This document shows, one piece after another, positions 7,027 through 31,930 of a DNA stretch of 33,179 bases. How positions within the stretch are numbered: the stretch's first letter is position 1; each line of letters opens with the position of its first letter. A program made the position numbers and the translations under genes. A model generated the notes under the pieces. It ran no database searches and was not told where the DNA came from. It saw only the letters and a program-made list of their open reading frames with translations. The DNA comes from Desulfobulbaceae bacterium (lineage in GTDB: Bacteria > Desulfobacterota > Desulfobulbia > Desulfobulbales > SURF-16): positions 1 to 33,179 of the forward strand of contig QKJV01000483.1 in the NCBI GenBank assembly GCA_003249165.1, written 5' to 3'.

Positions 7027-7085
7027 AACGGGGTTCTCCATCACGCTATTTTAGTAATTAGTTAACTTTAAATTCACTATTATTG

Positions 7086-7107
7086 ATAAAGAACATATGT
7101 TCTTTAT
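7086..7107. promoter_or_regulatory. 22-bp perfect palindrome ATAAAGAACATATGTTCTTTAT, candidate operator
   Basis: Perfect inverted repeat in the 347-bp intergenic region upstream of the Hdr cluster. Confidence 0.5.
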
Positions 7108-7243
7108 TTTATTGTGTTTTTGCAAATTACTCCCACGTAACAACACCATCACAGGCAAAAAACCTATGATTTCACTTGCTTTCATCTCCTTTTTATTTTA
7201 AAACCGCAGCCAAGGGTAATGAACATATGTATCATAACTCTAC

Positions 7244-7273
7244 TTGAGAAAAGGGATCGTTTGGGTGTAGAAT
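7244..7273 (+). promoter_or_regulatory. Candidate sigma70-type promoter TTGAGA-N18-TAGAAT
   Basis: Consensus-like -35 (7244-7249) and -10 (7268-7273), upstream of the 7374 start. Confidence 0.35.
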
Positions 7274-7325
7274 GGTTATAGCTACCTCTAAGTATTAAGC
7301 ATATGTTTAATATCGTTTCTCAAAT

Positions 7326-7339
7326 CTGGTTATAACCAG
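7326..7339. promoter_or_regulatory. 14-bp perfect palindrome CTGGTTATAACCAG, candidate operator or leader element
   Basis: Perfect inverted repeat 35 bp upstream of the 7374 ATG; TGGTTATA half also present at 7272-7280 region. Confidence 0.35.
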
Positions 7340-7373
7340 TAACAGAAGTTTTAGAGATGGAGCCAGTTTCCTT

Positions 7374-9620
7374 ATGGCAAACAACAGAATTGAACTGAAT
7401 CTTCACAGACAGATCGCTGAACTTGGCGCCAAGGATATGGAAGTCTGCATGCAATGCGGTAATTGTGCAGCCTCCTGTCCTCTTTCCTCCAACGAGACAT
7501 CTTTCCCGAGAAAAATATACCGTTATCTGCAGCTCGGCTTAAAAGATAAAGTTCTCGAATCGCCTGAACCATGGCTCTGCTATTACTGCGGAGAATGCAA
7601 CACCGACTGCCCGAGAGGTGCAGAACCGGCTGAAACGATGATGGCCACCAGAAGATGGCTGACCACCCAGTATGACTGGACGGGGCTTGCCCAGAAATTT
7701 TACGCCAACCCGGTCTGGGAAGTAGGAGCATTTGCCCTTATCACCCTGACTGTCATGGCTATCTTTCTTCTCTTTCACGGCCCGGTGATAACAGACAGGG
7801 TGGAGCTTAATACATTTGCTCCTGCCCATTACGTGCATATCGGCGATGAAATCATGATTCTCATCGTCATGGGGCTTTTATTCTCCAACGCGTTCACCAT
7901 GTTTCGCAAGATCATGCAGGGAACCAAAGTTCCTCTGCATCTCTACCTCACGCAGGCGCCTGTATTCATCATCAATTATTTCACCCAGAAGCGGTGGCGT
8001 AAATGCGGCACCGGACGCTCAAGTGCCTGGTGGCGTCATATTTTTCTTTTCTCAGGCTGGGTGGCCATGGAAGTGCTGGTGATGATCTTTCTCACAGCCT
8101 TCCAGACAGATATTGTTCACCCCTTCTGGCATCCGACCAGAATCGTCGGGTATTATGCAACCCTTGCCCTGCTGTTCGGCTCCGGCACCATGCTCTATTC
8201 ACGGCTCTTTCTGAAAGAGGAAAACCTGCACCGTTATTCTGATTTCACAGATCTCTTTTTCCTGGGACAGATCTTCGTTATAGCGATCACCGGCATTGCC
8301 GTGCATATTACACGTCTTGCTGGCTGGCCGATGCTGACTTATTCCATCTACGTCTTCCATGTTGCCATCTGTGTTGCCATGCTGATGATTATGCTGCCGT
8401 TTGGTAAATTATCGCATCTTCTTTACCGGCCTCTGGCAATCTTTCTCTCAACCATAAAAGAGAAAGCCCAGACAGCATCGCTTTCATCACTGGCCACCAT
8501 TGAAGAGGCCATCGGCAACACCTTTCAAAGCTGCATGCAATGCGGAGCCTGTACAGCATCGTGCCCAATCAGCCGCAGTGCCTCTTTCAGTCCCCGCCAT
8601 ATCCTGCGGAGTCTGGCCATAGGTAAAGCAACCAATATCTCAGCCGATGTCGCCGCCTGGGAATGTACCACCTGTAATTCGTGCGTTGAAAGCTGCCCGC
8701 GGGGAATCCCGTTAAAAGACCTGATCCTGGCACTGCGTGAGCAGACAGTGAATACCGCTCTTGTTCCACAAACGGTCAACAAGGCATTAACAAGCCTTGA
8801 TTCGCGCCAGAACCCATGGCAGCAGAAGCAGAGCGAGAGGAAAAACTGGCATAGCAACAATCACATTGAACCCTATAACCCAGATCATGAATTTTGCCTC
8901 TTTACCTGCTGTTCCATCGTCTACGCTGAAGAAGGCTCCCATAACAAAGAATCGGGCACAGCCCTTGTCAATATTCTGAATAAGGCAGGAATCAATTTCG
9001 GTTCATTACATGATAAAGAGGGATGCTGCGGTGAACTTGCAGTCAACAGCGGCTTTGCAACTCTGCAGAACAAAATAGATTCGCGCAATACCAATGTGTT
9101 CCATGAAGCAGGGGTAAGAAAGCTTATTGCTTTCTCTCCGCACTGCTACAACGTGTACAAGAACAATAACAGCCAGACAGCTGAGATCATGGAAACACTT
9201 CATTACACCGAGCTTGTCAGCAGGAAAATATCAAGCGGTGAGCTTGTGCCGGTTAATGAAGTGAAGAAGAAAGTCACCTTTCACGACCCATGTTACCTCG
9301 GCCGCTACAATGCCATCTATGATGAGCCAAGACAGCTCATCAACTCGATTCCCGGTATCGATTTTGTCGAGATGCCGAATAACAGAGAGAGAAGCATCTG
9401 CTGCGGCGGTGGCGGCGGCGGAGTCTTCAAAGACAGCGGCAGTCCGTTCAGCAATGCTGCTCTTAGGCTGCAGGAAGCGATTCTGACCGGTGCCGATACG
9501 CTGGTTGTTGCCTGCCCGCATTGTATGCAGGTTTTCAGCAGGACTCTGGAAGAAGGAAATCTCAAGGGCAAAATCAAATTACAGGATCTTGCCGAACTGT
9601 TTTTTGAATCGATAAATTGA
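7374..9620 (+). CDS. Membrane Fe-S oxidoreductase: HdrC-like, cytochrome b (NarI/QmoC-like), second HdrC-like and CCG (HdrB/HdrD-like) domains fused
   Basis: CMQCGNCAASCP + CYYCGECNTDCP; TM segment with conserved His; CMQCGACTASCP + CTTCNSCVESCP; HDPCYLGRYN...CCGGGGGG...CPHC. Confidence 0.88.
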   Translation: MANNRIELNLHRQIAELGAKDMEVCMQCGNCAASCPLSSNETSFPRKIYRYLQLGLKDKVLESPEPWLCYYCGECNTDCPRGAEPAETMMATRRWLTTQYDWTGLAQKFYANPVWEVGAFALITLTVMAIFLLFHGPVITDRVELNTFAPAHYVHIGDEIMILIVMGLLFSNAFTMFRKIMQGTKVPLHLYLTQAPVFIINYFTQKRWRKCGTGRSSAWWRHIFLFSGWVAMEVLVMIFLTAFQTDIVHPFWHPTRIVGYYATLALLFGSGTMLYSRLFLKEENLHRYSDFTDLFFLGQIFVIAITGIAVHITRLAGWPMLTYSIYVFHVAICVAMLMIMLPFGKLSHLLYRPLAIFLSTIKEKAQTASLSSLATIEEAIGNTFQSCMQCGACTASCPISRSASFSPRHILRSLAIGKATNISADVAAWECTTCNSCVESCPRGIPLKDLILALREQTVNTALVPQTVNKALTSLDSRQNPWQQKQSERKNWHSNNHIEPYNPDHEFCLFTCCSIVYAEEGSHNKESGTALVNILNKAGINFGSLHDKEGCCGELAVNSGFATLQNKIDSRNTNVFHEAGVRKLIAFSPHCYNVYKNNNSQTAEIMETLHYTELVSRKISSGELVPVNEVKKKVTFHDPCYLGRYNAIYDEPRQLINSIPGIDFVEMPNNRERSICCGGGGGGVFKDSGSPFSNAALRLQEAILTGADTLVVACPHCMQVFSRTLEEGNLKGKIKLQDLAELFFESIN

Positions 9621-9683
9621 ACGGGGCGTACAAGATGAAAAGCAACCCGACAACTTGCCCAACAAATAGCAAGGAGCAAAACA

Positions 9684-10112
9684 ATGAGTGATTACGAGCC
9701 TAAGATAGTGGCCTTTTTCTGCAACTGGTGCACCTTTACCGCCGCAGATCTTGCTGGAACAAGCCGACTGGCCTACCCGCCCAACATGAAGATCATCCGT
9801 ATGATGTGCAGCGGCATGGTTGACCCCAAGTATGTCCTCAAGGCATTTCTCAACGGTGCTGACGGCGTGCTGATCGGCGGCTGCTGGCCGGGTGACTGTC
9901 ATTACATCAATGGCAATCTCAAGGCTAGAAGACGGGTTGCACTCCTTACCGAGCTCCTCAAACAATACGGTATCGGTGAAGACAGGCTCTGGCTGCGCTG
10001 GATTGCTGCAAGTGAGGGAACAATGCTTCAGGAAGTAGCTGTTGAGATGACGAAAAAGCTGAAAGAAATCGGCCCGAGTCCACTCAGCAAAAATCATCGT
10101 AAAGCAATCTGA
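9684..10112 (+). CDS. MvhD-like [2Fe-2S] protein (methyl-viologen-reducing hydrogenase delta subunit family)
   Basis: FFCNWCTFTAADLAG, MMCSGMVDPKYVLKAFLNGADGVLIGGCWPGDCHYINGN. Confidence 0.92.
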   Translation: MSDYEPKIVAFFCNWCTFTAADLAGTSRLAYPPNMKIIRMMCSGMVDPKYVLKAFLNGADGVLIGGCWPGDCHYINGNLKARRRVALLTELLKQYGIGEDRLWLRWIAASEGTMLQEVAVEMTKKLKEIGPSPLSKNHRKAI

Positions 10113-10126
10113 GAGGGAGAAGAACC

Positions 10127-11254
10127 ATGACAACATCTATTCAGGCATCGTATGCACAGGGTGAACTGAACACCCAGCTCGCCGGATTTTTCAGAAGCCT
10201 GCTCGAAAAAGGTGTGGTGGATGCACTTCTGCTCCCGGCCAAACAACCGCCTCACGGGGTTACCCAGACCCTGATCACCAACCCGGACAGTCTTCAACAC
10301 ATCGACCCTTTTGCACCGGTCGTTCCGCTCAATAGTGCAAAGCTGGTCAGTTCACTCACTGCCATGCCGCCTGCCGAAAAAATCGGCGTCGTCATTCGAT
10401 CCTGTGAACTCCGTGCTGTAATCGAGCTTGTAAAACTTAAACAGGCTACCACAGACAACCTGCTGATTATCACCATGGACTGTCTCGGCCGCTACGAAAA
10501 TACCGACTACCGTCAATTTTCAAAGACCTCCACAACTGAACAGTTTCTGGCCAATGCACTTGACGGCAACACCGCAGCAGACGGCTTTGACATAGTCAAT
10601 GCCTGTAAAATCTGTGAATTTCCGAATGTCAGCAACACCGACCTTCGCCTGGGCCCGATCGGCACCGGCAAAAATGCCTTCATCATAGAAGCTGTCAGTG
10701 ACCGCGGCAAAGACGCCCTTGAGAAGGTTGATATGGAATGCAAAGAGGTCCCTTCTGCAAGACAGGATGCTCTCGACAAGCTTGCTGCAAAAAGAGGAAC
10801 TGCAAGAGATGTTCTTTTTGCCGAATACCGCGGTCAGGCCAACTCCTTTGAGCTGCTTGAAGAAAAACTGGCAGGCTGCATCAACTGTTACAACTGTCGA
10901 GTCGCCTGTCCTGTCTGCTACTGTAAGGAATGTGTTTTTGTCACCGATACCTTCCGCCACAAGGGCGAACAATACATTGCCTGGGCGCAGAACAGTGACG
11001 CCCTCAAAATGCCCACGGACATGCTTTTCTACCACCTGACCCGCATGACCCATATGGCTACCTTCTGTGTCGGCTGCGGCCAGTGTACCTCCGCCTGTCC
11101 AAACGATATCGACCTCATGCCTCTCTTCAGAACGTCGGCACAGGTTTCACAGAATCGATTCAATTATGAAGCAGGCCGTGATGTGAATGAGAAACAGCCT
11201 CTGGCAGTTTTTGAATCGGACGAACTGGTCGAAGTTACCGGACAGGTAAAATAG
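10127..11254 (+). CDS. FrhB/FdhB-like (coenzyme F420 hydrogenase/dehydrogenase beta subunit family) Fe-S protein
   Basis: CINCYNCRVACPVCYCKECVF and CVGCGQCTSACPNDIDLMPLFR motifs; N-terminal RSCELRAVIELVKLKQ as in FrhB/FdhB-type proteins. Confidence 0.8.
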   Translation: MTTSIQASYAQGELNTQLAGFFRSLLEKGVVDALLLPAKQPPHGVTQTLITNPDSLQHIDPFAPVVPLNSAKLVSSLTAMPPAEKIGVVIRSCELRAVIELVKLKQATTDNLLIITMDCLGRYENTDYRQFSKTSTTEQFLANALDGNTAADGFDIVNACKICEFPNVSNTDLRLGPIGTGKNAFIIEAVSDRGKDALEKVDMECKEVPSARQDALDKLAAKRGTARDVLFAEYRGQANSFELLEEKLAGCINCYNCRVACPVCYCKECVFVTDTFRHKGEQYIAWAQNSDALKMPTDMLFYHLTRMTHMATFCVGCGQCTSACPNDIDLMPLFRTSAQVSQNRFNYEAGRDVNEKQPLAVFESDELVEVTGQVK

Positions 11255-11263
11255 GAGCGTATC

Positions 11264-14200
11264 ATGCCAGAAACAAAACCAATAGGCCGGATCCTGGTCG
11301 CCGGTGCAGGTATTGCCGGAATCCGCTCAGCCATAGAGCTGGCAGAAACCGGATACAAGGTGCTGCTCATCGACTCAGCCCCTTATGTCGGCGGGATCCT
11401 GGCCAAACTTGATTACCAGTTCCCCACCGACCACTGCGGCATGTGCCGCATGCTGCCCATGGTAGGCCGTGAATACTCATCAGAATACTGCATGAGAAAA
11501 AGCCTCTACCATGAAAACATCGAGATCATGCCGTTTACCGAGATCAAATCGATTCAGGGAGAACCGGGAAAGTTCAGTGTCGAGCTCATCCAGAAAGCAA
11601 GATATGTCGATCCAGATCGCTGTAATGAGCTCGGAGGCTGTATTGAAGCCTGTCCGGTGGAAGTCGGCGATGAATTCAACCACGGACTGACAACACGAAA
11701 AGCGATCTTTCAGTCTGTGCCGCACAACAATCCGTCCATGCTGATGGTCGATATACAGTCATGCACCAAGTGCGGACGCTGCGTCGATATCTGTTATCTT
11801 GGGGCCATTGATCTTGAAGCACAGGATCAGATTATCAGCCGGGAAGTCAATTCATTAATTCTTGCCTCAGGAATCAAGCTCTACAACACCCGTGAGTTTG
11901 AAGACGCCAAATCTTACACGGCATCTCCAGACGTCGTATCTGCGCTCGCCTTTGAACGGATGATCAGCGGCACCGGCACCTATGACGGTTTCCAGATCCG
12001 CCGACCTTCTGACAATAAACCGGCAAAGAATATTGCCTGGATCCAGTGCATGGGTTCCAGGAATATACACCAGAAACGCGACTACTGTTCCTCTGTCTGC
12101 TGTATGTTTGCCCTGAAAGAGGCTGTGCTCGCCAAGGAAAAAGGCGGCAGAGACACCAAATCGACCATCTTCTATATGGATATGCGGACCTTCGGCAAAG
12201 GTTTCCAGCAATATCGCGAGAAGGCTGAAAATGAGCATGGTGTGCGGCTGGTCAGGTGCCGAGTTCAAGAGGTTACCAAAACCAGCGGCAATGATCTGCA
12301 GATCCGTTATTACGATCCGGGCTCCGACAGCTTTGAAATTGAAAATTTTGATCTGGTGGTTCTCTCAACCGGTCAGGTACCGTTTCAGGATCACAGGAAA
12401 TGGTCTGAAATAACCGGCTGTGAGCTCAATAGCCTGGGTCTGCTTGCAACCGAACAGTATTCCAAGACCAGACTGCTTAACAGCCCAGGCATCTTCATGT
12501 GCGGTTCGCTGATGGGTTTTACCGATATCAGTGAGGCCATGGCAAGCGGCATCGCAGCCGCCGGTGATACCACCAACTTTCTGCAGACCCTTGATGTAAG
12601 CACCATTGAAGATGAGGCCTTTGTCGAACCAGAGACTGAAACGAAAAAACCTGCACAGGTAGCAGTACTTATCTGCAAGTGCGGTGAGTTCTCAAGACCT
12701 GAAGGACTTGATATTGAGCTTCTCCTCTCAAGCCTGATGAAGCACCCCGGAGTCAAAACAGTTCAGATGATCGAATCAGTCTGTTCTGCTGGAGGACAGC
12801 AGGCAGCTCTGGATTTTCTTAAACAAACTGAATGCAACAGGCTTCTTCTCGGTGCCTGCCAGCCCTTCATGTATCGCCGTACCTTGAAAGATATCGCCAG
12901 AAAGGCAGGTTTCAATTCCTCTCTGGTACAGATTATCGACCTGCTCGGTATCTCAAGGCGTGGACTGCACAACTATTCTATGAAGGATTGGACCCTTCGT
13001 GCAATCTCGGAAATCAAGGCTGATCTTGAAGCCATAAAGCTGAAACCTGCGCTCAACATGCAGTCGCGCCCGATTATTCAAAAAGCCATGGTCGTGGGCG
13101 GCGGACCGGCCGGAATGCATGCGGCCCTCTCTCTTGCCGACAGAGGCGTCTCTGTCGAGCTGATTGAGAAGTCCCACGAGCTCGGCGGCTATGCAGGCAA
13201 TAGAATTGCGAAAACCATCGACGGGCTTACACCGATCAAAACCACCCAGGAGCTTAAACTCAAGGTCTTTGAACATACGATGATCGATGTACATCTTAAT
13301 ACCGTCGTTGAAAAGACCAGCGGTTCACTGGGCCATTTCGAATCAAAAATCACCAGTCTTGATGGTGAGAAATATGAATACCTCCATCACGGCGCAGTCA
13401 TTGTTACAACCGGCGGCAATGAAGGAAAAACAGACGAATATTCGTACAACGTCTCACCGCGGATTCTCACCCAGAGTGAATGTAAAACTGGCATAGAACA
13501 CGACACCCTTGACCTGGAGAACTGCAAAGACATCGTGATGATCCAGTGTGTCGGTTCACGGGAAAAGGGCAAGCGTGAATACTGCAGCCGGATATGCTGC
13601 ATGTGGGCGATTGCTAACGCCATCGCCATAAAAGAGAAAAATCCGGATATCCGTATTTTTATCCTCTACCGCGACATCATGACCTATGGCTTTCTTGAGC
13701 GCTATTACACACGGGCCAGAGAGCTTGGCATTCTCTTTGTCAGCTACACCCTTGATGACAAGCCCACCGTTGAAATAGTTGATGATACTCATCTTGTCAC
13801 CTTTACTGAATCGATCCTGAGGGAAAAGGTGACCATTGATGTCGATTATCTGATTCTCTCAACCGGTGTTGATCCAGCCGAAACCAACAAAGAGTTGGCT
13901 GGTGCCTTTGCCATACCGCTTGGCAATGACGGCTTCTTTGAAGAGGCAGATCCGAAATGGCGACCGGTCGAGTTCAGACAGCAGGGAGTTTTTCTTGCAG
14001 GAGCCGCCCACGCCCCGGTCCCTCTGCCGGATGTTCTGATGCAGGCAGAAGCCGCTGCCCAGCGGGCCTACAGCTATCTCTCGGCACAGGAACTGCTTAC
14101 GGCGCGGGTTGTTTCAACCGTGCGTGATTCGTTGTGTATCCGCTGCCAGCGCTGTGTTGCGGTTTGCCCGTATGAGGCTCGCTCCTATGATCCAGTCGAG

Positions 14201-14362
14201 CACAGGATTATCGTCGACAGCGCAGCTTGTCAGGGTTGCGGAATGTGTGCCGTGGCTTGCCGAAATAACGCAGCTGAAGTCCCGGGTTGGAGCGATCAGC
14301 AGACCCTGGCGGTTATCGACCAGAAACTGATGGACGATTTCAGCTTCACCACCAGTAAGTGA
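11264..14362 (+). CDS. Tandem HdrA-type FAD/Fe-S protein (two FAD modules in one chain)
   Basis: Two dinucleotide-binding motifs (VAGAGIAGIRSA; VVGGGPAGMHAA), two IQC(M/V)GSR...YCS..CCM motifs, several 4Fe-4S ferredoxin motifs. Confidence 0.92.
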   Translation: MPETKPIGRILVAGAGIAGIRSAIELAETGYKVLLIDSAPYVGGILAKLDYQFPTDHCGMCRMLPMVGREYSSEYCMRKSLYHENIEIMPFTEIKSIQGEPGKFSVELIQKARYVDPDRCNELGGCIEACPVEVGDEFNHGLTTRKAIFQSVPHNNPSMLMVDIQSCTKCGRCVDICYLGAIDLEAQDQIISREVNSLILASGIKLYNTREFEDAKSYTASPDVVSALAFERMISGTGTYDGFQIRRPSDNKPAKNIAWIQCMGSRNIHQKRDYCSSVCCMFALKEAVLAKEKGGRDTKSTIFYMDMRTFGKGFQQYREKAENEHGVRLVRCRVQEVTKTSGNDLQIRYYDPGSDSFEIENFDLVVLSTGQVPFQDHRKWSEITGCELNSLGLLATEQYSKTRLLNSPGIFMCGSLMGFTDISEAMASGIAAAGDTTNFLQTLDVSTIEDEAFVEPETETKKPAQVAVLICKCGEFSRPEGLDIELLLSSLMKHPGVKTVQMIESVCSAGGQQAALDFLKQTECNRLLLGACQPFMYRRTLKDIARKAGFNSSLVQIIDLLGISRRGLHNYSMKDWTLRAISEIKADLEAIKLKPALNMQSRPIIQKAMVVGGGPAGMHAALSLADRGVSVELIEKSHELGGYAGNRIAKTIDGLTPIKTTQELKLKVFEHTMIDVHLNTVVEKTSGSLGHFESKITSLDGEKYEYLHHGAVIVTTGGNEGKTDEYSYNVSPRILTQSECKTGIEHDTLDLENCKDIVMIQCVGSREKGKREYCSRICCMWAIANAIAIKEKNPDIRIFILYRDIMTYGFLERYYTRARELGILFVSYTLDDKPTVEIVDDTHLVTFTESILREKVTIDVDYLILSTGVDPAETNKELAGAFAIPLGNDGFFEEADPKWRPVEFRQQGVFLAGAAHAPVPLPDVLMQAEAAAQRAYSYLSAQELLTARVVSTVRDSLCIRCQRCVAVCPYEARSYDPVEHRIIVDSAACQGCGMCAVACRNNAAEVPGWSDQQTLAVIDQKLMDDFSFTTSK

Positions 14363-14369
14363 GGAAACA

Positions 14370-14873
14370 ATGGATTTACAAAACGGTGCAATAAAAGATC
14401 TCTGGAAAGACATCTATAATACTGGTGATCTGCAACATTGCTATAACTGTTCAACCTGTCTTGCCGGCTGCCCTGCCTCCTATGGCGACCCGCCGCTGAT
14501 GGTGAGAAACCTTGCAAGAAAAGTGCTGCTCGGCCTTGAAGAGGAACTCTTTGAAGATGATACTCCATGGGCATGTGTTTCCTGCTCGCGCTGTGAAGAA
14601 ATGTGCCCGATGGACGTCAAACCTTTTGAGCTCATTCTCTCTGTCCGGATGTGGCAGGCAACCAACGACGAGACCAGGGTTCCGCCATCGATTGTTGATA
14701 TCTATAAACGCGGCTACACCCAGGCTGCCGGGGCCAACCAGGAGCTTCGTGACAGCCTTGGTCTTCCTGAACTGCCGGTGATCACCAAAAATCCTGAACA
14801 GTTGAAAATGTTTCAGGAAATGTTGATGAAAACGCCGGTAGTCAGTGCAAACGATTATATGTTCGGAGGCTGA
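14370..14873 (+). CDS. hdrC: Heterodisulfide reductase subunit C-like protein
   Basis: CYNCSTCLAGCP and CVSCSRCEEMCP, about 167 aa, located between hdrA and hdrB. Confidence 0.9.
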   Translation: MDLQNGAIKDLWKDIYNTGDLQHCYNCSTCLAGCPASYGDPPLMVRNLARKVLLGLEEELFEDDTPWACVSCSRCEEMCPMDVKPFELILSVRMWQATNDETRVPPSIVDIYKRGYTQAAGANQELRDSLGLPELPVITKNPEQLKMFQEMLMKTPVVSANDYMFGG

Positions 14874-14898: not shown

Positions 14899-15783
14899 AT
14901 GGAACTCTGTCTTTTCCTCGGATGCAACACCCCTGCCATTCGCCCTGATGTGGAGCGTGCAATACGCTGCTCCATGCCAGCCCTTGGTGTTGATCTGGTC
15001 GATGCCGACAACTATGTCTGTTGCCCTGCGTTTGGTTCTTTTCCATCGACAGATCAGGATTCATGGCTTGCCACCAGCGGCTGGAATCTTTCCATCGCTG
15101 AGCAGAAAAAATGTGACATGCTGGTACAATGTGGCTCCTGCTACAGCTCGCTGCGCATGGGAAGGAACCATATTGTCGAACACGAAGAAACTAAAAACCG
15201 CGTCAACGAACTGCTTGAGCCGACCGGCAGAAGCGTTACCGGATCTAGCAATGTGCGGCATGTCTCGGAGGTGCTGTTCAAGGAAGTCACACCGGAAAAA
15301 ATCAACAACACAATTTCAAAAGATCTTAAAGGACTACACGGCATTGTGCAATACCCCTGTCATACCCTTTATCCCAGTGAAGTTGTCGGCTTTGAGAAAT
15401 CTTCACGCCAGCCGGAAGGATTGAAAAAACTGGTTGAAGCCCTCGGCGCCGAAGTTGACGGCTATTCTCGTGAGATGCAATGCTGCGGCGGTGCCGGAGG
15501 ATTTATGAAGAGCACGCCGGAGCAGGCGATAGAATTTGCCAAAATGAAATTTGATGCCATCCTGGAAGAGACACAGGGGCAGTTTATTGCTGTCTCCTGC
15601 ATCACCTGCCTCATGCATATGGAAAACGTCCAGAATACGCTGAATAAGCGCCTGGGGGAAGAAAAATACAAGATACCGATCTTTGACTACAACCAGCTGC
15701 TGGCCCTTTGCCTCGGCAACGATCCAGCCCAGGTCGCCTCGATCTGCAACGTTTCCAGGGACTCGATTCTGGAACGGTTTTAG
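14899..15783 (+). CDS. hdrB: Heterodisulfide reductase subunit B-like protein
   Basis: [14 protein letters not shown]...CCPAFGSF...CGSCYSS and YPCHTLYP...CCGGAGGFM...CITC, two CCG domains. Confidence 0.93.
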
Positions 15784-22893: not shown

Positions 22894-23937
22894 TTATTTT
22901 ACGGGTTCAATATTTGGAAATTTCCAGGAGCCATCCAAAATCGCCCTGCGCGGCTTGTACATCCTTACAGCATAGTTCCAGCCGTTGGTAATTGGCAGAT
23001 AGTTGATACTCTTGGGATTACCGCCAAAGTGAAAGGTGTATGAGCCGTCTTCGTTTGGCTTAGCGGAAAAGTTGTTGTAGCTGTTTATACCGAGATCGTT
23101 TGCCTCGAGATAGCCTTCGTCGTTATAGACGGTAATAGACCAGAAGGCATCTACAGGAACGTCTTTCACTGTCACCATATACGCTGTTTTCCCGTCGTTC
23201 CTATCGACGCTGTCGATGATGTAGGAGGCGGCTGTTCGTGGCAGCCCGCCCCATCCAGCCGCTGCACCGACCAGATAATCGACAGGACGTACTTCGTCTT
23301 TGCGACCGAATGCGTAAGATGCGTCGAATCCCAGGACAGCGAGGTCGTTAAGAGCCCTGCGTGCAATAGTGAGTTGATCCTTGTTCCAGTTCGGTGCCTC
23401 AAATGGTCCCCTACCACCGCCACTGATTTCGATCTTGTCCTGGACGGCATGAGCCTTGGGTAGGTCATCGGGGTCGCCGGCGTTATAAAAGGTTCGTATA
23501 GTTACGTAAGAAAAGCGGGTGCCAACCGAATCCTCAGTCAATTCATAGCTCCCTGGTTTAGATTCAACGAACATATAATGATCCTGATTGACCACGTGCA
23601 TGGACATGTAACGCCCATCAACCTCCGGCAGCGTAATTGTAACGGGTTTGGAAAGATCCAGTATCGTGCTGGAGTAGAGGGTATCCTGGTTCATGCGGAT
23701 AACAGGCTGGTTGTCAGGTGTGGTTGGGTTGCGCAAATGCCTGAACTTGCCGAAGCTTGCGCCGGAAGCGTTCATATTGACCCTGATCATATGATCCGAC
23801 TCAGCCCGTACGAAGTTTTCCACTGTCACCTGCTCACTGGCACTTACTGAGACTGCTGCAGACACAAAAATTAAGATTGTAACGGCAAAAATAGCCTTTA
23901 ACCTACTGATTATATATATATTCTCTGTTGTTTTCAT
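22894..23937 (-). CDS. DUF1254/DUF1214 domain-containing exported protein
   Basis: NQPVIRMNQDTLYSSTILDLSKPVTITLPE and DAFWSITVYNDEGYL; signal peptide starting MKTTENIYIISRLKAIF with AGGA RBS, so start placed at 23937 (ORF extends to 24063). Confidence 0.82.
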   Translation of the reverse strand: MKTTENIYIISRLKAIFAVTILIFVSAAVSVSASEQVTVENFVRAESDHMIRVNMNASGASFGKFRHLRNPTTPDNQPVIRMNQDTLYSSTILDLSKPVTITLPEVDGRYMSMHVVNQDHYMFVESKPGSYELTEDSVGTRFSYVTIRTFYNAGDPDDLPKAHAVQDKIEISGGGRGPFEAPNWNKDQLTIARRALNDLAVLGFDASYAFGRKDEVRPVDYLVGAAAGWGGLPRTAASYIIDSVDRNDGKTAYMVTVKDVPVDAFWSITVYNDEGYLEANDLGINSYNNFSAKPNEDGSYTFHFGGNPKSINYLPITNGWNYAVRMYKPRRAILDGSWKFPNIEPVK

Positions 23938-24029
23938 ATCATTATCCTGAAAATTAGATTCTTTACCAGATTGAAATGCTGCAGCATGCGGCAAAGTTTC
24001 GTTGTCTTGAGTTGTCATGATCATTTTCA

Positions 24030-25442
24030 TTATTGAATCCGTTTCAGCGACGGCTTTTTCCAAATGCCAGTAAGCGCTTCATCCTTTGGCCAATATAGAC
24101 GCATTACTGCAACAAACGGCCCCTTAGGGGCTGGGAGCCAGTTGGGTTCTTTATTTTTCCCTGGAGAGTCATGCTGCAGGTAAAGAGTAATTCCGCCGTC
24201 AACATCACGGATAAAGTTCGGCAGCATAGGGGAGTTGAGCAGATAGCGATTAAGCGGGTTCGATACCAGCAGGCTTGCAGGCAATTCATACATCGTGAGC
24301 GACCAGAAGGCGTTGACAGGCGGAAGTTCATCAGGACCAAAATGCAGGGTATAACTGTGCGCTCCGCTGGGATCATGTCCATCGCTATCGACCATGTATG
24401 AAGGATAAATTGCCTCTTCAGCACTGTTGCCCCAAATACCAAGAACAGCGGCTGCCATGCGAAAGAGATAATTACCCTTGAGGTGCTCCCTTGTACCGAA
24501 GATGTCTCTAGAGTCAAACCTGCCTGCTTCAAATTCTTTTTTCAGCTTGGCGAAATCATCCCAGGCATCGGCAATTCCCTGGCCGATTGCAGCCTGGATT
24601 TCCGGTGAAAATTTATTCCAGTCAAATGTCTTACCGGCACCGATATCAAGTTTTGCAAAACGGGCCATAAGTTCTTTTTCCGATGAATTTACGGGGCAGA
24701 ATTGCAGCACGAAATTCAATTGCTGAAAGATCTCGGGCGATTTCGTTAATGCATCACGCGTCAGAGGCTTGTGGAAGTTAATTTCCAGTGCAGACTGAGG
24801 TGCAGGATGACCGAGAAACTCTGAGAGAGGTTGAGCCTTATAGCCAGCCTGAACAGCTTTCACATTTTCGATATCTTCTGGAGAGAAAAGCTGGGTACGG
24901 TAGATAGCAACTACTAATTCCGTTTCGGAACGGATCACTTTTGTAATGCCATCTGGCACGTTGCCTTGCCATTTAGGCCCGGCGATCAGAAAACGACCTC
25001 CATCATTGCCGGTCGTTCGACTGCCAATATAATCAAAGTTAAAAGTATAAAGATCGATGAGCTGGATACTGAAGTAGCGCGCCTTTTCAATCATCGGCAC
25101 GGTCAAAACAAAAGGTTCGGTACGCAGATCGAGCCCCAGCCAGCTGTAGGGCGTGTCGGAGTTGGGAGTTTGAACAGCTTTATCGTCCGGAGTGTAAACC
25201 CGGGCCAGGTTTTTGAGATTGTTCCAGGGTGTCTTGTAATCGGGATTTGTCTGATCAATGAAAGATCCGTTAAGAATGCGGTAGCTGTCCACCATCGGAT
25301 TGGCGTAGATATAAGCCTCTTTGGCTATGACTCTTGCTTCCTCGGAGGTGACGGCTGTTTGAGCCTGTGCATTTTGCAAAACAACCAGTGCCAGTAATGC
25401 CGCGGTACAGAACACTGTTTTCATCAAGCTGGCTTTTTGCAT
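24030..25442 (-). CDS. DUF1254/DUF1214 domain-containing exported protein
   Basis: AVQTPNSDTPYSWLGLDLRTEPFVLTVP, NAFWSLTMYELPASLLVSNPLNRYLLNSP; signal peptide; AGGAG RBS. Confidence 0.88.
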   Translation of the reverse strand: MQKASLMKTVFCTAALLALVVLQNAQAQTAVTSEEARVIAKEAYIYANPMVDSYRILNGSFIDQTNPDYKTPWNNLKNLARVYTPDDKAVQTPNSDTPYSWLGLDLRTEPFVLTVPMIEKARYFSIQLIDLYTFNFDYIGSRTTGNDGGRFLIAGPKWQGNVPDGITKVIRSETELVVAIYRTQLFSPEDIENVKAVQAGYKAQPLSEFLGHPAPQSALEINFHKPLTRDALTKSPEIFQQLNFVLQFCPVNSSEKELMARFAKLDIGAGKTFDWNKFSPEIQAAIGQGIADAWDDFAKLKKEFEAGRFDSRDIFGTREHLKGNYLFRMAAAVLGIWGNSAEEAIYPSYMVDSDGHDPSGAHSYTLHFGPDELPPVNAFWSLTMYELPASLLVSNPLNRYLLNSPMLPNFIRDVDGGITLYLQHDSPGKNKEPNWLPAPKGPFVAVMRLYWPKDEALTGIWKKPSLKRIQ

Positions 25443-29667: not shown

Positions 29668-29701
29668 AACCCTCCATGGTCAAATTTGACCATGGAGGGT
29701 T
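29668..29701. repeat. 34-bp perfect palindrome inside IS21 left end, overlapping the istA ribosome-binding site
   Basis: AACCCTCCATGGTCAAATTTGACCATGGAGGGTT equals its own reverse complement. Confidence 0.9.
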
Positions 29702-29706
29702 GGAGG

Positions 29707-31215
29707 ATGTTGATAGTGGAAACGATAGCAAAGGTACGCAGGTTTGTAGAGGGCAAAAGCATTAAGCAGATTTCCAGGGAATTGAAATTATCCCGCAATA
29801 CGGTACGAAAGGTGATTCGCAGTCAGACGACTGAACACCATTATGAACGGGCGACTCAACCTTTTCCACAGATTGAGGGATATAAAAATCGTATAGAGCA
29901 ACTGCTAAAGGAAGACGCCAGCCGCCCAAAACGGCGTAAAATGACAGCGCAGCGGATGTTCGAGATTATTCAGAGCGAGGGTTTCCAGGGCACCTACAGC
30001 AGTGTTCAGCGCTATGTAAAGAGGCATAGAGAAGATCACACAAAGATGGCAGCCGAACGTTACATCCCACTGCATTTCCCCCCTGGAGATGCATATCAGT
30101 TTGACTGGAGTCATGAGACTGTAATACTCTCTGGTGTTTCTCAAACGATAAAACTGGCTCATTTTCGCCTCTGTTACAGCCGAGTGTTCTTCATTGTTGC
30201 CTATCCACGCGAGAGTCAGGAGATGGTGTTTGATGCTCATAACCGAGCCTTTTCTTTTTTCCAGGGAACGTGCAAAAGAGGTATATACGACAATTTGAAA
30301 ACTGCGGTGGACAAGATTCTACGTGGTAAAGGCCGGTTGTTCAACCGCAAGTTTGAGCAGCTATGCAGCCACTATCTTGTTGAACCTGTAGCCTGTACAC
30401 CGGGTGCTGGCTGGGAGAAAGGCCAGGTTGAAAACCAGGTCGGCAATATCAGGAAATGGCTTTTTTCCGTAAGGCCACGATTCAACAGTTTTGAAGAACT
30501 GAACTCATGGCTCTATGATCAGTGCATTGCCATTTGCAAAAAAAGAAAACATCCGACAGAGAAGACGAGAACCATTTGGGACGTCTTTGAAGAAGAACGA
30601 GCAACCCTTCTTCCTGTATCATGTGAGTTTCAAGGATATTCCGAAACGGAGTGTCGTGTATCAAGCACCTGCCTGATCCGATATGACAGGAACCATTACA
30701 GCGTTGACAGCAAACTATCAGGCAAAACGGCAACTATACGTGCGACTGTAGGCAGAATCCAGGCAATCAGTAATGGAGTTCTTGTAGCTGATCACCCAAG
30801 GCAATTTGGCCGTGACAACGTGGTCTACGATCCCTGGCATTATCTTAACGTTCTGGAACGTAAGCCTGGTGCATTACGTAACGGGGCTCCATTTAATCAG
30901 CTGGAACTTCCTTCGTCTCTTTCCAGGGTAAGAGAGCAACTCATCAGAAAACAAGGTGGCGACCGGGAATTTGTTGATCTCCTTCTCGCTGTTCAGCAAT
31001 ACGGGATGGATGTTGTTGAGCAGGCGTGCAAAAGCGTGCTCAGTGATGGCCTTGTTCGGGGAGAAATAATCCTCAACACAATAGCGCGATTCTGTGATCC
31101 CAGCCCCATAGAGACGGTCAATGTGCCGAGGTCCCTGTCCCTGTCGATAGAGCCGACATCTGACTGCTCCCGTTATGATGCACTGCGTCAGGAGGTTTAC
31201 CATGGAACGCCATGA
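29707..31215 (+). CDS. istA: IS21-family transposase IstA
   Basis: HTH ([21 protein letters not shown]), DDE integrase core (FDWSHE...[12 protein letters not shown]...[11 protein letters not shown]); likely ATG at 29707 after GGAGGG. Confidence 0.94.
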
Positions 31216-31930
31216 GGTTATCACTGAGTTGAGGAAGCTGAAACTCTACGGCATGGTTGGCGTCTATGATGAAGCTGTTACACAGGGTATTCGTCGTAAC
31301 AACAGCATGCAAGAGATTCTGATGACACTCTGCCTCGCCGAAGCGGCTGAACGCAAAACCCGTTCAATCAAATATCAGCTTGGCATCGCCAAATTCCCGG
31401 TACATAAAAATCTCGACACATTCTCGTTTACAGACGCACAGGTCAACGAAAAACTGGTTAAAGATCTTTATACAGGTGCTTTTCTGGAAGAACCCAGGAA
31501 TATCATCTTTGTTGGCGGTACCGGAACCGGCAAAACCCATCTTGCAACTGCCATTGCCATTCAATGTATCAGGCTGGGCAGACGTGGCAGGTATTACAGT
31601 GTTGTTGATCTGGTAAATAAACTTGAGCAGGAAAAGCTTGGCGGACGAGCGGGTTCGCTTGCCGGCAGACTCTCCAATGTGGACTTCGTCGTCCTCGATG
31701 AACTTGGCTATTTGCCGTTCTCACAGGCAGGCGGTGCTCTGCTCTTCCATCTGATCAGCACACTCTATGAAAGAACATCACTGATTATTACAACAAACCT
31801 GAACTTTGCTGAATGGTCTAAAATCTTTGGTGATGCAAAAATGACAACCGCTTTGCTGGATCGGTTAACCCATCATTGCGATATCATAGAAACAGGAAAT
31901 GAGAGTTGGAGAATTAAAAAGAGGACCTGA
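31202..31930 (+). CDS. istB: IS21-family helper ATPase IstB
   Basis: [35 protein letters not shown] Walker [24 protein letters not shown]. Confidence 0.95.

Follow-up and report, generated by a model that had tools for sequence, protein, structure and literature searches.

The question raised by this locus is whether the unusual reading frame at 7374–9620 (plus strand) of the window, i.e. the whole 33,179-nucleotide stretch analysed here, encodes a genuine single protein, and in what kind of complex such a protein would operate. The frame spans 748 codons without a stop and encodes, from the N- to the C-terminus, an HdrC module, a six-helix cytochrome b domain, a second HdrC module and two CCG domains. 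The initial annotation read it as a QmoC-like half joined to a half of the HdrD or EMO type, and both assignments are borne out by Pfam and NCBIfam searches, which place Fer4 modules, a QmoC-like region and CCG stretches in one chain, and, for the C-terminal half, also by an alignment with EtfD (see below). Pfam identifies two Fer4 dicluster modules (cysteines 25–79 and 387–441) and two CCG stretches, the best one at residues 634–719. In NCBIfam, the qmoC model matches residues 8–356 with 242 bits (cut-off 300), a TfrB/HdrD-like match covers residues 361–743, and the DsrK and TmcB models show weak similarity.

The N-terminal HdrC module, with two cysteine sets between C25 and C79 (7446–7610), retains its eight cysteines in 75 of 75 sequences, comprising fusions, single-gene proteins and QmoC. 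The second module (C387–C441, 8532–8696; Fer4_8 at 385–445) aligns with the HdrC of solved HdrABC complexes, and all 16 cysteines, eight per module, are invariant in 36 of 36 fused copies; the proposal that two paired-cluster HdrC modules flank the membrane domain agrees with these full ligand sets and the six helices between them. Nearly all CCG ligands are kept in the fused copies as well. According to the alignments, the first CCG domain (8907–9146) contains C512, C513, C551, C552 and S588-P-H590-C591, with Ser588 replacing the first cysteine of the CxxC in 36 of 36 copies, so that the domain falls short of a complete HdrB-type site. The HdrD-type CX~35CCX~36CXXC site is complete in the second CCG domain (9273–9527), all five cysteines of which (C640, C676, C677, C714 and C717) are found in 35–36 of the 36 copies, one row being truncated.

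Hydropathy averaged over 21 orthologues delineates six hydrophobic helices between the HdrC modules, at residues 117–343 (7722–8402), and the distribution of positive charge places loops 0, 2, 4 and 6 inside, most clearly loop 2 (+7.5). Given this helix count and these loop charges, both HdrC modules are predicted to face the cytoplasm, which is the outcome of a topology test that had been set beforehand. A single-sequence AlphaFold2 model of the fusion has a pLDDT of 39, too low to be trusted. His222, His329 and His348 are present in all QmoC-like rows of the alignment; His253 and His311 occur in every fusion and almost without exception in related single-gene proteins, but the QmoC of the family to which the window belongs has other residues at these positions. 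By predicted helix position, conserved histidines lie near both membrane faces, an arrangement that would suit two hemes.

The search covered overlapping genome sets: 395 genomes of the phylum, 258 of the class to which the window belongs, 29 of the class containing G298 and 241 of that containing G252 and G334. With the window counted, it gives 36 fused copies from 34 genomes, one copy being truncated at a contig end. The full-length fused orthologues, all from genomes of the same phylum, are 47–60% identical to the window copy. With this number of copies and the invariance of the 16 HdrC cysteines, the layout is far beyond chance. A frameshift or an assembly join of two genes would also give a 748-residue frame, but nothing was found in favour of such an artefact, and it is refuted by 35 fused copies in 33 other genomes and by the presence of the fusion in three single-contig assemblies (G497, G498 and G502), which make it exceedingly improbable; the protein is a single chain, as first described. 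The fusion seems to be present in a cable bacterium, namely G502, taken to be Candidatus Electrothrix scaldis GW3-3, for which a closed genome has been published (PMC10926707). A scan of genome contigs recovered a single remote HdrD-like locus and nothing else, and a scan of viral contigs recovered no relative of the fusion.

Separate phylogenies of the two halves, as suggested in the initial annotation, recover the fusions as one clade in each case, with an SH-aLRT support of 99 in the N-half tree and a support of 100 in the C-half tree, where their sister is the HdrD of G041 and G115 (support 94). The simplest reading of both trees would be one fusion event. Two loci depart from the common pattern. 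In the single-contig genome G767 (L145, 1995–3251), a natural truncation leaves the QmoC half intact and about 48 residues of the C half, with no HdrL operon behind the gene; in G549 (L131, 13664–15943), a second, orphan fusion copy is found without an HdrL operon. The orphan copy is followed by genes for an AI-2E transporter and a glucose/sorbosone dehydrogenase.

Genomic context, which the initial annotation had missed, places the fusion gene first in a conserved operon, fusion-HdrL-MvhD-FrhB-HdrAA(-HdrC-HdrB). In 29 of the 30 relatives with examined surroundings, the next gene encodes HdrL, a protein of about 1,130 residues that consists of an HdrA core with an inserted GltD-type NADPH module; behind it, where the contig continues, come MvhD, FrhB, HdrAA and often HdrC-HdrB, and in a second set of relatives sensor kinases end the operon in place of HdrC-HdrB. 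In most relatives, hdrL starts before the fusion gene is over: its ATG falls among the final codons of that gene (CAGGAGG...CATGTCTGA), with a GGAGG-like site ahead, and this overlap suggests coupled translation. The conserved C-terminal tail QE..HV, considered as a protein motif, is actually this ribosome site together with the start codon of hdrL. In G041 and G115, HdrB'-HdrD replaces the fusion in the same operon and, in G041, is preceded by HdrC, giving an operon without a membrane part (HdrC-HdrB'-HdrD-HdrL-MvhD-FrhB-HdrAA). It looks as if a membrane module had taken the place of a soluble one. HdrL and MvhD are separated in G497 (L133, 8429–10238) by a gene for a cytosine DNA methylase and by another ORF of 216 residues, and G502 has ORFs of similar size at the same position.

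In the window, only 63 bases (9621–9683) separate the stop codon of the fusion gene from the MvhD gene, at the junction where relatives have the hdrL gene of about 3.4 kb, and HdrL is absent. The remaining genes, all on the plus strand and all shared with the relatives' operons, encode MvhD/FlpD (142 residues, 9684–10112; Pfam FlpD, 170.6 bits), an FrhB-like iron-sulfur protein (375 residues, 10127–11254; Fer4 and a weak match to FrhB_FdhB_C, below the cut-off), a double HdrA, or HdrAA (1032 residues, 11264–14362; HdrA2-type matches in three stretches), an HdrC-like protein (167 residues, 14370–14873; TIGR03290, below the cut-off) and an HdrB-like protein (294 residues, 14899–15783; CCG; TIGR03288, below the cut-off). 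Judged by eye, the second half of HdrAA seems to open with the HdrA N-terminal domain and the first half to lack it; the complementary fused HdrA of ANME (PMC9012536) resembles this arrangement. Upstream of the fusion gene, at 7027–7373, there are three CATATG-centred palindromes, AAAGAACATATGTTCTTT at about 7093 and others at 7223 and 7299, which are possible operator sites; both exact occurrences of ACATATGT in the window fall into this region, and these palindromes are not common to most relatives.

HdrL-like pieces elsewhere in the same bin (C395, C313, C431 and C491) were considered as the missing HdrL and rejected: they are found in other contexts and are 44–50% identical to a query with which the relatives' operon HdrL shares 59–85% identity. 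Furthermore, the contig, which the window covers completely (G000:C302:1-33179), belongs to a bin with 6.5% contamination, the fusion was not found in other searched genomes of the window's genus or family, and the transglutaminase and the glycerol kinase of the window have no good match in the eight genus or family genomes tested. Matches to these two proteins come from family f4 of the same order (40% and 68–74% identity, respectively), to which the operon of the window is also nearest. The contig may thus be misbinned or transferred, in which case not finding HdrL in the bin means little outside the window locus. The same contig carries two adjacent genes for DUF1254/DUF1214 proteins on the minus strand (22894–25442) and, near its end (29686–31930), a gene pair that by eye resembles istA/istB of IS21.

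The C half of the window copy is divergent. The end branch of the window has an ordinary length in the N-half tree (0.2) but is very long in the C-half tree (1.08), and by relative-rate counts, changes unique to the window are about twice as frequent as expected in the C half in 6 of 6 comparisons (p from 0.007 to 1e-8); no consistent excess is seen in the N half, MvhD, HdrC or HdrB, and HdrAA and FrhB show some excess mainly with one outgroup. Rather than fast evolution after the loss of HdrL, a swap of the C half by recombination with a divergent paralogue would account for the sharp step at residues 374/375, where identity to G549 falls from 68% to 44%, and for the approximately equal distance of the window C half from all fusions (39–44% identity). 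Several observations speak against such a swap: a tree that joins the C half to its closest relatives survives the AU test (p-AU 0.357; 0.052 for the wider clade), GC content by codon position is alike in the two halves, and HdrAA and FrhB also have some excess change with one outgroup. Recombination appears to be the lesser, although a serious, possibility. The loss of HdrL and the change in the C half, together with the truncation in G767, fit a contact between HdrD and HdrL, the correlation with HdrL loss coming from one lineage.

The nearest known proteins are HdrF, EtfD, QmoC and HdrDE. The QmoC subunit of QmoABC has the same HdrC and six-helix cytochrome b as the N half of the fusion, but it ends after the cytochrome b, where the fusion continues with HdrC and CCG domains; the fusion scores below the QmoC equivalog cut-off (242 versus 300 bits, NF038018), differs at the two histidines mentioned above, and belongs to an operon with HdrL-MvhD-FrhB-HdrAA-HdrC-HdrB instead of adjoining qmoAB/aprAB. 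The HdrDE enzyme of methanogens consists of two subunits, cytochrome b and HdrD, with no extra HdrC; compared by description alone, the fusion combines the same two parts in one chain and adds an HdrC.

The closest structural counterpart of the C half is EtfD of M. smegmatis (PDB 9ojn), whose structure forms an electron wire leading to heme b and menaquinone (PMC13083937) and in which a TM domain is likewise followed by an HdrC module and two CCG domains. The two align over profile positions 407–758 with the same ligands except Ser588: those of the second CCG domain correspond to EtfD Cys637, 672, 673, 709 and 712, and H590 corresponds to His583, a noncubane cluster ligand in the EtfD structure (PMC13083937). 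The linear 3Fe-4S cluster of EtfD is ligated by Cys503, 538, 581 and 584 (PMC13083937), and this set is incomplete in the fusion, where Ser588 takes the place of Cys581. EtfD also differs in having five TM helices instead of six, in lacking an N-terminal HdrC (residues 25–79 of the fusion) and in its partner, ETF, as opposed to HdrL/HdrAA/MvhD. HdrF of Desulfobacterium autotrophicum, an organism for which HdrL is also named, resembles the fusion in combining a TM region and HdrC/HdrB homologous domains in one chain; the accessible part of that account, the sole basis of this comparison by description, mentions no second HdrC and places the HdrF genes next to glpAB/etfAB (PMC2702500). For an HdrF, a role in delivering electrons from quinone to a cytoplasmic QmoAB/HdrBC complex has been put forward (PMC8982180). 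ANME-1 has tandem HdrA clusters as well as HdrA/NfnB fusions that match HdrL in kind (PMC9012536), and the shared features include an NADPH-binding insert in HdrA, a double HdrA, FrhB/FdhB, MvhD and an occasional HdrD, but the accessible parts of these sources describe no QmoC-HdrD membrane subunit (PMC9012536, PMC2702500). The open-access literature, which leaves aside many subscription papers including a 2021 review of HdrA modules, contains no description of the QmoC-HdrD layout, in agreement with the original remark that it is unusual.

Taken together, these observations make it likely that the operon encodes a flavin-based Hdr-type complex and that the fusion is its membrane subunit, with a link to quinone; the complex would transfer electrons between menaquinone and carriers in the cytoplasm, which are probably NAD(P)H and ferredoxin. 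The formation of the complex and the path, direction and carriers of the electrons, as we infer them, are as follows. The cytoplasmic flavin core would consist of HdrAA and, in the relatives, also of HdrL with its NAD(P)H-binding module; electrons would pass between this core and menaquinone via two cytoplasmic iron-sulfur arms on one b-type cytochrome, namely a QmoC-like one formed by the N-terminal HdrC and an EtfD-like one, the HdrD arm, formed by HdrC and CCG. In the relatives, flavin-based bifurcation between NAD(P)H, ferredoxin and menaquinone, or the reverse process, would be the most probable net reaction, by analogy with EtfABCX, an enzyme linking NADH, ferredoxin and menaquinone (PMC10734219); EtfABCX would do the same net job but belongs to an unrelated protein family. 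In the window, where HdrL is gone, the expected entry point for electrons is FrhB/MvhD or an enzyme encoded separately. This reading accounts for the layout and ligand conservation, the adjacency of HdrL, the EtfD alignment, the QmoC-like N half, the topology, the placement of histidines, the sister relationship to a soluble HdrD from the same operon and the loss of HdrL along with the change in the C half. Against it stand the weak assignment of FrhB (below the Pfam cut-off), the HdrB of its own that the operon retains in many relatives, which would allow a disulfide instead of quinone as high-potential acceptor, the one second copy without HdrL (G549) and the fact that HdrL loss is correlated with C-half change in a single lineage.

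Two other modes of action would give the HdrD arm a different partner. An EMO-like role, in which a dehydrogenase or ETF feeds the CCG domains and electrons proceed through the HdrD arm to heme and menaquinone, is suggested by the ligand and module correspondence with EtfD and by the location of the D. autotrophicum HdrF genes, but it would make the N-terminal HdrC a leftover of a QmoC ancestor, and a relic would hardly keep eight cysteines in 36 of 36 copies; moreover, the operons examined contain no etf or dehydrogenase gene, HdrL/HdrAA/MvhD being present instead, and we consider this role improbable. Similarly unlikely is a quinol:disulfide oxidoreductase like HdrDE/DsrMK, whose HdrD arm would reduce or oxidise a thiol/disulfide partner such as DsrC, with the N-terminal HdrC connecting to HdrA. 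The HdrD architecture with one complete CCG site and the weak similarity to the DsrK and TmcB models fit such an enzyme; but the HdrB of the operon could itself take the role, and the first CCG site of the fusion is one cysteine short, compared with two noncubane clusters in methanogen HdrB.

If the quinone-linked reading is followed further, the operon could tentatively be viewed as encoding a flavin-based bifurcating complex, anchored in the membrane and not yet described, through which Desulfobacterota would couple NAD(P)H, ferredoxin and menaquinone; it would seemingly occur in a cable bacterium as well, with a form lacking HdrL in the window. Rnf and Qrc are reported to be absent from Desulfobulbales (PMC10553843), so that such a complex would have a job there, filling the role that Rnf could have in other anaerobes. 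Its existence would bear on the balance of NAD(P)H, ferredoxin and quinone in sulfate reducers and cable bacteria without Rnf or Qrc. With a flavin core of HdrL/HdrAA and a membrane wire of the QmoC-HdrD type, in which a single cytochrome b would bear both cytoplasmic iron-sulfur arms within one protein, and with the operon defined and the fusion present in no fewer than 34 genomes, this question of redox balance becomes testable.
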